This document shows positions 50,060-61,325 of a stretch of 64,000 nucleotides of DNA, piece after piece; the first letter of the stretch is position 1; every line of letters starts with the position of its first letter. Origin of the DNA: Ciceribacter sp. T2.26MG-112.2 (GTDB taxonomy: Bacteria > Pseudomonadota > Alphaproteobacteria > Rhizobiales > Rhizobiaceae); the NCBI RefSeq assembly GCF_900492205.1, contig NZ_UEYQ01000010.1, positions 1 to 64,000 of the forward strand, in the 5' to 3' direction. Made by a program: the position numbers and the translations under genes. The notes beneath the pieces are model-generated. The model was not told where the DNA came from, did no database searches, and was given only the letters and a program-made list of their open reading frames with translations.

Positions 50060-50659
50060 ATGACCATCAGCAACAGCCGCACGTCCGAGTTCGATATCGA
50101 ACCCTTGTTCCTCGACCGCTGGTCGCCGCGCGCCTTTACCGGCGAAGCGATGGATGAGAAACACCTGCTGACCATGCTCGAGGCGGCACGTTGGGCACCC
50201 TCCGCCAGCAACTACCAACCGTGGCGTTTCGTCTATGCGCTCAACACTTCTACGGATTGGGAGCCATTCGTCGGTTTGCTGAACGAATCAAACCAGGTCT
50301 GGGCAAGATCCGCCTCGGCGCTGGTCTTCCTGTTTTCCGACACCTTGAGCCGGAGGAATGACGGTCTAGAGCCGAGGCCCCTGCGCAGCCACAGCTTCGA
50401 CACGGGCGCCGCCTGGGCCATGCTGTCGCTGCAGGCGCTGCACTTGGGCTACCTCGCCCATGCCATGGGCGGCGTCGACTTCGAGCGGGCGATCGAGGTG
50501 CTCGGCGCACCGGCCGGCTTCCGGGCGGAAGCCGCCGTCGCCATCGGCAGGCACGCCGATCCCGACACCTTGCCGGACCATCTCAAGGGCCGCGAAGTGC
50601 CGAACGGCCGAAAGAAACTGGCCGATATCGCCTTTGCCGGCCGCTTTCCGCGCGGATGA
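50060..50659 (+). CDS. Nitroreductase family FMN-dependent oxidoreductase
   Basis: This 199-residue protein fits the nitroreductase fold. The early RWSPRAFTGEAM and the APSASNYQPWRFVYA segment bind FMN, and the helix GAAWAMLSLQALHLGYLAHAMGG is typical. These enzymes reduce nitro groups, quinones or flavins with NAD(P)H; the natural substrate is unknown. It converges on gyrB, and the short gap holds the parS-like sites. Confidence 0.9.
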   Translation: MTISNSRTSEFDIEPLFLDRWSPRAFTGEAMDEKHLLTMLEAARWAPSASNYQPWRFVYALNTSTDWEPFVGLLNESNQVWARSASALVFLFSDTLSRRNDGLEPRPLRSHSFDTGAAWAMLSLQALHLGYLAHAMGGVDFERAIEVLGAPAGFRAEAAVAIGRHADPDTLPDHLKGREVPNGRKKLADIAFAGRFPRG

Positions 50660-50678: not shown

Positions 50679-50694
50679 TGTTTCACGTGAATCA
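50679..50694. other. parS: parS-like centromere site 1
   Basis: TGTTTCACGTGAATCA differs from the widespread bacterial parS consensus (TGTTTCACGTGAAACA) at one base. It lies in the gap between the convergent nitroreductase and gyrB genes, about 10.4 kb from the proposed origin. An identical 16-mer occurs at 59452. The variant base creates GAATC, a GANTC methylation sequence. Confidence 0.82.
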
Positions 50695-50704
50695 CTCTTT
50701 AGCC

Positions 50705-50720
50705 GGATTCACGTGAACAT
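50705..50720. other. Degenerate parS-like site
   Basis: GGATTCACGTGAACAT keeps the TTCACGTGAA core and, read in reverse, shares TTCACGTGAATC with the neighbouring site. Its centre is 26 bp from that of the site at 50679. Five of sixteen bases differ from the parS consensus, so ParB binding may be weak. Confidence 0.5.
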
Positions 50721-58013: not shown

Positions 58014-58611
58014 CCGATTTTCTTCCCTTTCCCGCCCGTATCTCCGCCACCACTTCCAAGACCTGTTGGCGTGCCGCCTCTATCCCGTGACCTGTATCGA
58101 TGACGAAATCGGCGTGCCGTCGCTTCTCAGCATCAGGCAGCTGGCGCGACAAGATCATTTCGAATTTTTCCGGGGTCATTCCCGGCCTTTCGAGCACGCG
58201 CCGACGCTGAATGTCCGCATCACAGCTGACGACAACGATCACATCGACCCGATCCGCGCCGGCGGTTTCAAACAGCAGCGGTATATCCAGCACCACCATG
58301 TCCGCGCCGGCCCCCCGCTGCTCGGCGAGAAAGCGCTCTTCCCGCTTGCGCACCAGCGGATGGACGATCGCTTCGAGCTCCTTGAACTTAGCCGGATTCT
58401 TTGCCAGATTTTCGGCCAACACGCTTCGATCGACCACCCCTGTCGTGACGGCGTCGGGAAAGAGCCGGCCAATCGGCTCCACGGCTTCTTCGCGATAGAG
58501 CTCGTGGACCACGATGTCCGCATCGTTCACGGCTATGCCCTGCTCGGCAAACAGGCCCGCCGTCGTCGACTTGCCCATGCCGATCGATCCTGTGAGACCG
58601 ACGACGATCAT
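58006..58611 (-). CDS. coaE: Dephospho-CoA kinase
   Basis: This 201-residue kinase makes the last step of coenzyme A synthesis. The P-loop is GSIGMGKST (8-16). The start at 58611 overlaps the aroE stop by four bases; the frame extending to 58683 is out of family. Confidence 0.96.
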
Positions 58612-59471
58612 GGATGCTCCTTGAGATCGGCAATGATCAGATCGCGAAGCGACTGGTCGACGACCGGCCGCTGACCGAACCACTTTTCAAAACCCGGCAC
58701 GGCCTGGTGCAACAGCATGCCCAGGCCGTCGACGGTCGCCAGACCGACCCGCTCGGCCTGGGCGAGGAAGTCGGTCTTCAGCGGCACATAGACGATATCC
58801 GTCACGACAGCGTTCGGCGCCAAGGTGCTAAAAGGAAGTGCCGGCGCCGGCGACCCCGCCATGCCCAGTGATGTCGTATTGACGAAGAAGTCGGCTCCTT
58901 GCATGACCTCGGCGCAAGCGTCCATCCGGTGCCCATGCACCCGCGGGCCGAAGCGGTCAGCAAGTTCCAAAGCCCGGTCTAGCGAGCGATTGACCACATG
59001 GATCTCCCGGAAGCCGCGTTCCCGCAGCGCCTGGATGACAGCCCGGCTCGCGCCGCCCGCACCCAGGACGATTGCTCGTTTGGCGGCGCGATCCCATCCC
59101 GGACGGCGGTCGTCGAGATTGGCCAGAAAACCAATGCCGTCCGTATTGGTCGCCTTTAGCCTGCCGTCCTCGAGCCAGAGGGTGTTGGCAGCTCCGAGTT
59201 CATCGGTCAGCGCATCTGTTGCATCGGCGAGCCGATAGGCCGATTCCTTGTGCGGTATGGTGACATTGCCGCCGCAGAGACCAAGCGCGCCACTCTTAAG
59301 ATTGGCGACAAAGCCTGCAAAGTCCTCCGGTGCTACCTCGATCTTTTCGTAAGTGCCGGCGATGCCGAGTGTCTTCAGCCAATGACCGTGGATCAGGGGA
59401 GAGCGGGAATGCCTGATGGGGAAACCAACGACGAAGGCGTGATGGTTAACTGTTTCACGTGAATCAGCCAT
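58608..59471 (-). CDS. aroE: Shikimate dehydrogenase
   Basis: This 287-residue NADP-dependent enzyme reduces 3-dehydroshikimate. The substrate-binding [14 protein letters not shown] and Lys75 in NVTIPHKE, the NTDGIGF motif and the NADP loop GAGGASRA are intact. Codons 2-6 (Ala-Asp-Ser-Arg-Glu) and 7 overlay the parS-like site at 59452-59467. The start at 59471 lies inside the last codons of maf. Confidence 0.97.
59452..59467. other. parS: parS-like centromere site 2, inside coding sequence
   Basis: TGTTTCACGTGAATCA, identical to the site at 50679, one mismatch from the general parS consensus. It lies across the aroE 5' codons and the maf stop, about 1.6 kb from the DnaA box at 61096. It contains GAATC. 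An ATGGTTAA (59443-59450), resembling a CtrA half-site, adjoins it. Confidence 0.85.
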
Positions 59472-60063
59472 CAAGCTCTCCCAGGGCGCGCAGCTCCCCC
59501 AGCAGCGGAAGCAGCGGCAGGCCGAGAATGGTGAAGTAGTCACCGGTTATCGAATTGAATAGCTGGATTCCGATCCCCTCCAGCTGGTAGCAGCCGACAC
59601 TCTCCATCACCTTCTCTCCGCAGCGATCCAGATATCTTTCGAGAAAGGCGTCGGAGAACGTGCGCATGCTAAGGTCTGCTGTCGACAGGTGACGCCACAG
59701 CTCCCTGCCCTCGCGCACAAGCACGATACCGCTGTTCAACCGGTGCTCCCTGCCGCGCAGGGCGGAAAGGGTCGATCTCGCTTCGGCGCGGTCCGCAGGC
59801 TTGTGGAAGACCCGCTCTCCAAGCGACATGGTCTGGTCGCAGCCGATGACCAGGGCGGCTGGAAAACGATGGCTGACCTCCAGTGCCTTTGCCGCCGCAA
59901 GCTCAATTGCCAAGTCGCCAGGCCCGAGGGCCCTGGGGAGAAGCTCCTGCTCTATCGCACGTTCGTCGACATTGGCCGCAACCGCTTTAAAAACCAGTCC
60001 GGCATTTTCCATCAGCTTTCGGCGTGACGGGCTCGCGGAGGCGAGAACCAGTGTATCGGTCAT
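59464..60063 (-). CDS. maf: Maf-like nucleotide pyrophosphatase
   Basis: This 199-residue protein hydrolyses non-canonical or canonical NTPs. The family signatures [12 protein letters not shown] at the N-terminus and Asp76 in GCDQTMS are present. It overlaps aroE by eight bases and is 38 bases after the PPDK regulator. An upstream frame to 60183 is not homologous. Confidence 0.93.
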
Positions 60064-60923: not shown

Positions 60924-61325
60924 GTTCTTCTCGATCGCCTGTTGATAAGTCGGGACAAACAGAGGTAGCGGTGCCGGGCATGGCCGGGCAAGGGGAAAAG
61001 TGCCGACTTGTCCACACCCCTTGCCCGGCGGGAGGATTTCAGAGGCACCTGTGGATTGTGGTAAGACGCCGCATCTGTGCCGACTTGTTCAACCTTTATC
61101 CACAGGATGCCGTTTTGGCCGAGCCTAAAGAAGCCATTGTATTTTATGAATTTTATCGGTTTTTACCCAACTCCTCAGCCAAACGGCTGAGATTCGTCCT
61201 GATCCCTTGGGAGGTGAGGCAAAGCTCCGGTTTGTCTGTGGAACAGCTTTAATCCTTGATAGCCACAGACTCTTAGAAATAGAAGAAGATTCAATTATCT
61301 TTTCTTTTTTAAGAGGGCAGGCGCC
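60924..61325. other. oriC: Probable chromosomal origin of replication (oriC)
   Basis: This 402-base gap between divergently transcribed genes lies beside hemE, as in Caulobacter and Sinorhizobium. It has a perfect DnaA box (61096-61104), a one-mismatch box TTGTCCACA (61008-61016) and two-mismatch boxes at 61050-61058, 61237-61245 and 61259-61267. Three GANTC sites occur at 61191, 61268 and 61288, and an AT-rich tract runs over about 61256-61315. Genes on either side run away from it. Confidence 0.82.
61096..61104 (+). promoter_or_regulatory. DnaA box (perfect match)
   Basis: TTATCCACA, the exact strong DnaA-binding consensus, within the proposed origin. Confidence 0.85.

Follow-up and report, generated by a model that had tools for sequence, protein, structure and literature searches.

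The window analysed here is a 64,000-nucleotide stretch of a Ciceribacter contig in which maf and aroE overlap by 8 bp (59464-59471). A parS-like site lies across this overlap (Table 1). The site, originally predicted at 59452-59467, is real, and its true position is one base to the left. At 59451-59466, TGTTTCACGTGAATCA has the predicted single mismatch to the parS consensus TGTTTCACGTGAAACA; its departure from a perfect palindrome is at the third base of the site (A, not T).

On the minus strand aroE begins with ATG and GCT. The site, originally placed across codons 2-7, takes in the last base of codon 2 and all of codons 3-7, with the maf TGA opening it. Codons 3-7 (GAT, TCA, CGT, GAA and ACA) specify the residues DSRET. 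The original prediction also held that the stretch encodes two protein ends, which is correct for the AroE N terminus, whereas the maf side receives a stop codon alone and no residue. TTAAC or GTTAAC often directly follows parS (in the window at 59441-59450, ACA GTT AAC), where the codons otherwise drift.

The window holds two matches to the pattern at up to three mismatches, against a mean of 0.09 in 100 dinucleotide shuffles, none of which reached two. The 10-base core at one mismatch was set aside as uninformative by itself: it matches twice in L006 against 0.49 expected, and two matches were reached by 19 of 200 shuffles.

Table 1. Coordinates of the features. Positions are those of the window or, past its end, of the contig; Phyllobacterium positions are those of the named loci.
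Feature	Position	Strand	Remarks
parS-like site, near-palindrome	59451..59466	.	+ TGTTTCACGTGAATCA / - TGATTCACGTGAAACA; pattern match and conservation
maf stop codon TGA, first three bases of parS	59464..59466	-	maf frame
maf (Maf-like protein)	59464..60063	-	NCBIfam NF002690, 287.9 bits, cut-off 269
aroE (shikimate dehydrogenase)	58608..59471	-	NCBIfam NF001312, 428.6 bits, cut-off 295; residues 3-7 encoded by parS
Other parS-like site of the window, with an identical 16-mer	50679..50694	.	Just past the gene at 50060-50659
Weaker parS-like core ATTCACGTGAAC	50707..50718	.	Beside the second site; pattern match
Putative oriC	60924..61325	.	Gap preceding hemE, about 0.4 kb long; contains a perfect DnaA-type box TTATCCACA at 61096
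Sister site	contig 65804-65819 (L006 5804-5819), past window end		Opens with the mnmE stop codon
Sister site	contig 67784-67799 (L006 7784-7799), past window end		In rsmG, near its start, before parA
parA	contig 68399-69193, past window end		ParA-type models matched; all 25 listed of 30 below cut-off
parB	contig 69226-70107, past window end		TIGR00180, 183.2 bits, cut-off 58.45
Phyllobacterium sites in mltA-like gene	L056:14421, L057:14416, L059:14475, L060:14432, L063:14475

Sister sites, putative origin and ParB

In the whole 4.97-Mb assembly (80 contigs) four places match the pattern at up to two mismatches. They all lie on the window's contig, from 50679 to 67799, a span of 17.1 kb that is close to the putative oriC and to parAB; a reversed control pattern gives no match in the same assembly. 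The site in rsmG encodes V-S-R-E-T. Paired sites similar to those at 50679-50718 are seen in several relatives.

The TTATCCACA box at 61096 is the only perfect one in contig positions 1-80000. It lies about 1.6 kb from the maf/aroE site, which agrees with the distance originally given to the putative origin. Over the same 80 kb the cumulative GC skew changes with a shallow slope and reaches its minimum in the bin at 58-60 kb.

The alignment of ParB with Caulobacter ParB (6t1f) covers positions 7-250. The residues of Caulobacter ParB that contact parS, and those that set specificity for parS rather than the Noc site (R173 and G201), are described in PMC7383237. We use the Caulobacter numbering of that paper, with an offset of 10 between chain and paper by our own count. 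Q162, G170, K171, S172, R173, N178, G201 and R204 are all kept, so both residues favouring parS over the Noc site are present; position 179 is Ser, and position 184 has the Lys of Noc. The top NCBIfam match of ParB by E-value is the Noc model, which at 224.5 bits is under its 315-bit cut-off, and the ParB domain model passes. The proposed fit with ParABS segregation is supported by the presence of parA and parB on the same contig (68399-70107), by the retention of parS-contacting residues in a ParB predicted to bind the site, and by the synonymous freeze described below.

Frozen bases at the start of aroE

The aroE starts compared come from 80 named loci (the top 80 of 593, with Ciceribacter selenitireducens as the nearest), from 120 further family genomes (the next 120 in the list behind the match of the window itself; 386 of 394 genomes matched) and from the window. 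Of these 201 rows, 14 were dropped for having identical first 450 bases after the anchor, leaving 187 distinct loci. A site was scored as present at up to three mismatches to TGATTCACGTGAAACA. It is found in 134 of the 187 loci, a figure that does not measure prevalence because both sets had been ordered by AroE similarity to the window. Carriers comprise the window together with 42 named and 91 further loci; the 53 loci without the site (38 named, 15 further) have seven to nine mismatches, apart from two with five. In the window's own genus all six genomes fetched or given carry it (the window, L100, L131, L153, L171 and L185). AroE identity to the window is as low as 59%.

Bases 1-15 of the site are identical in all 134 carriers, even though the scoring rule tolerated three mismatches, and base 16 is A in 125, C in five and G in four. 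Fitch counts, made on a single-gene AroE FastTree with long branches and 134 tips, give no change at any of bases 1-15 and seven at base 16. Beside the site they give 19-42 changes for each of the 12 bases on the 3' side, and 21 and 35 for the two bases on the 5' side. The median at aroE third positions is 41, and in columns with a conserved amino acid it is 36, with a minimum of 7. Low counts are also seen at the ATG (1-2), at positions -6 to -9 ahead of it (2-13) and at some anchor bases.

At the codon level, codons 3-6 are GAT, TCA, CGT and GAA in 134 of 134 carriers, and codon 7 is ACA in 125, ACC in five and ACG in four. In the rest of the same aroE genes TCA makes up 5.9% of Ser codons, CGT 12.9% of Arg and ACA 9.9% of Thr, while GAA and GAT stand at 53% and 51%. 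A single amino acid makes up at least 98.5% in 70 aroE columns; the most uniform of these uses one codon in 94.8% of rows, and the median column does so in 61%. An alignment of aroE 5' codons across relatives, which the original prediction had proposed, thus finds the synonymous sites frozen at the parS bases (134 of 134 for codons 3-6), and free synonymous drift in close relatives, for which we also looked, was not found among the 134 site-bearing loci.

An enzyme that needed its N-terminal peptide could in principle produce such conservation, and DSRET is indeed invariant in the 134 site-bearing loci. Selection on the peptide would, however, leave synonymous bases free, whereas these are frozen too, in the rare codons TCA, CGT and ACA; other codons for SRET, a direct test of peptide selection, are used in none of the 134 loci apart from the third base of codon 7 in ACC and ACG. 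Codon 2 specifies 12 different amino acids, yet its last base, which is base 1 of the site, is T in 134 of 134. The site also outlasts the start codon. In genus g15, five of the six fetched loci (L175, L178, L181, L182 and L183; not L180) have CCC or CTC as codon 1 with the 16-mer intact, and an ATG lies 3' of the site in the loci that lack the one at codon 1. Upstream in-frame starts are a single TTG in L178 and in L183, and two TTG and an ATG in L175; L181 and L182 have no in-frame ATG, GTG or TTG from the site up to the next upstream stop (18 codons), so that there the usual starts do not allow the site to be read as AroE. All 16 bases are kept in these two loci, against the peptide explanation, and relatives without the site lack the peptide. 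We therefore regard a role of DSRET in the enzyme as an extremely unlikely cause of the conservation. The pattern of codon change shows that the site is under selection as DNA. Two sister loci nested among carriers, L043 and L146, each show five mismatches, some of them synonymous, the pattern expected, on sequence grounds, from a release of constraint. That these two live without the site indicates that it is not indispensable by itself.

A second alternative keeps the selection on nucleotides but holds that the block couples maf and aroE at the level of RNA or translation and is not a DNA site to which a protein binds. Its placement exactly at the stop/start overlap fits this idea. Against it, the 10-base core, a palindrome without a loop, is also found at the stop of mnmE, inside rsmG and in intergenic positions of the region, and of the 53 loci without the block 43 have their maf stop in the same place; we consider such an element very unlikely. 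Chance similarity combined with shared ancestry and too little time for drift would draw on the relatedness of the carrier species. It has next to no probability, given 12 adjoining bases that changed 19-42 times each on the same tree, AroE identities to the window down to 59% and the 0.09 matches expected in the window at up to three mismatches. Chance origin and protein-level conservation were both rejected, on the shuffles, the frozen codons and the retention of the site where the start codon is missing. Use of the site by another regulator that binds a CACGTG palindrome is exceedingly improbable, since the sites of the own genome are confined to the surroundings of the putative ori and parAB, and the contact residues in ParB match.

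We conclude that the site is very probably a chromosomal parS of a Rhizobiaceae ParABS system, predicted to act together with its three sister sites (50679 and contig 65804 and 67784). ParB dimers with CTP load at parS and slide or spread onto the flanking DNA. A ParB dimer with CTP would likewise load at the 16-bp site here and then slide or spread to the flanking DNA, and this spreading would let ParA move the newly copied origin region.

A parS probably built on a gene overlap

The maf frame was traced by tblastn, which covered all 134 site-bearing loci (an earlier motif-based frame test had missed 20 of them). The TGA of parS is the maf stop in 133 of the 134 carriers, the stop in L171 lying 4 bases upstream. 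Counted from the most upstream aroE ATG found, the maf stop is at +5 in 43 of the 53 loci without the site, just as it is in carriers; 36 of these stops are TGA, four TAA and three TAG. The distance from the ATG to the AFV anchor is 11 codons in 119 of the 129 carriers with an ATG and 5-7 codons in 35 of the 43 site-less loci with a +5 stop; the site-less relatives are without the DSRET peptide. The shared position of the maf stop suggests that parS was probably built onto a pre-existing stop codon.

We infer that the site would have arisen in an ancestor of the Rhizobium/Agrobacterium/Sinorhizobium/Ciceribacter group, on an existing maf/aroE overlap. The maf TGA would have become the outer part of one half-site, and the remainder would have been gained with an in-frame extension of the AroE N terminus, making Asp-Ser-Arg-Glu-Thr a by-product. 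Construction on an existing stop codon would also account for the A, in place of T, at the third base of the site.

The number of gains may be one, or more if genus g82 is counted. Presence and absence labels on the AroE FastTree require five changes, two of them forced by well-supported branches, with no single clean origin; four genus g82 loci, L185 and L188 stand apart from the other carriers, L185 and L188 on long branches. We did not retain a gain count from this presence/absence tree, as it is too weak for the purpose (five changes; long branches of L086, L188 and L185).

The wider reading, which we favour with some reserve, is that a centromere has been built on a gene overlap, the maf stop supplying the outer part of a half-site and an in-frame lengthening the rest. 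AroE of the Rhizobium/Agrobacterium/Sinorhizobium group, as sampled, would then carry five residues that are due only to chromosome segregation; the double use of a TGA as stop codon and part of parS would recur at mnmE, so that the lopsided, TGA-type parS of the family would have been shaped by stop-codon duty. The locus would be a clean natural case of one 16-bp stretch with three jobs, as stop codon, protein N terminus and predicted centromere. In it, selection on DNA and on protein can be separated from the sequence alone, through frozen synonymous sites, survival of start-codon loss and synonymous differences after loss of the site. It is also a warning that conserved N-terminal residues can be a by-product as far as the enzyme is concerned, and it points to a means of cataloguing functional parS throughout a family that does not depend on ChIP.

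Other genes with parS-like sites and known systems

Other genes in the family carry parS-like sites as well. Of the 51 named loci with rsmG in reach, 49 have the core at a single, fixed offset in that gene (one is a single base off and one lacks it; in 29 more rsmG is out of reach). The mnmE (trmE) stop TGA opens parS in 58 of 77 named loci (TGAT in 47, TGAC in 11; three more have no mnmE in reach), among them genera without the aroE site, and mnmE would thus be a second case of a stop codon and predicted parS centromere in one. In hemE a parS-like site, AGATTCACGTGAAAC followed by A, G or T, sits at a fixed offset of 337 in 17 loci (for example L061:7594, L062:7810 and L066:7551), which belong to Mesorhizobium and one Aminobacter (L067), a group without the aroE site. 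Five Phyllobacterium loci have TGATTCACGTGAAACA inside an mltA-like gene, 248-266 bases from the gene start. The sites in rsmG, mnmE, hemE and mltA suggest that parS has repeatedly been placed in or at the edge of genes, at places that change over time.

A scan of the family gives at least one match at up to two mismatches in 355 of 356 good genomes, with some of the listed matches on other contigs and with zero to six matches per genome for the reversed control, whose count in a few small genomes is on a par with that of the true pattern (G228: 5 against 6). The exact 16-mer is present at the maf/aroE overlap in a Sinorhizobium meliloti record, CP090106.1 (L207), the one examined of seven matches in a plasmid collection. 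This 3.7-Mb record is labelled plasmid pSymB, has maf, aroE, coaE and dnaQ, and looks like a mislabelled chromosome.

A parS at maf/aroE was not found in the literature searched, and four strings of the site's letters had no occurrence there. In the parS review PMC7022226 the words coding, intragenic, gidB, Agrobacterium and Sinorhizobium are all absent.

Caulobacter crescentus resembles the present system in having an alphaproteobacterial ParB and several parS clustered near ori (accessible text of PMC5815017). It differs in that no maf/aroE site is reported in that text, and the words coding, gidB and maf are absent from the main text. Caulobacter parS sites are uneven, GTGAAA being the conserved half (same source), and such variation in one half means that the altered half-site here is no objection.

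Pseudomonas aeruginosa PAO1 also has parS within genes: nine of its ten predicted sites are most likely in coding sequences and were mutated with the coding sequence unaltered, and four PAO1 sites are close to oriC; in contrast to maf/aroE, neither a site doubling as the stop of an overlapping gene nor conservation across many species is described (accessible text of PMC4368675 for all these points). Agrobacterium tumefaciens belongs to the same family as the window, and on its chromosome 1 the parS1 sites carry the Bacillus subtilis consensus and are bound by ParB1, with ParB1 ChIP-seq peaks at parS1 (PMC9239152). Given the Pseudomonas precedent, a parS in a gene is ordinary. Intragenic parS being already known, what is new, as far as the literature searched shows, is a single conserved site that serves as predicted centromere, stop codon and N terminus.
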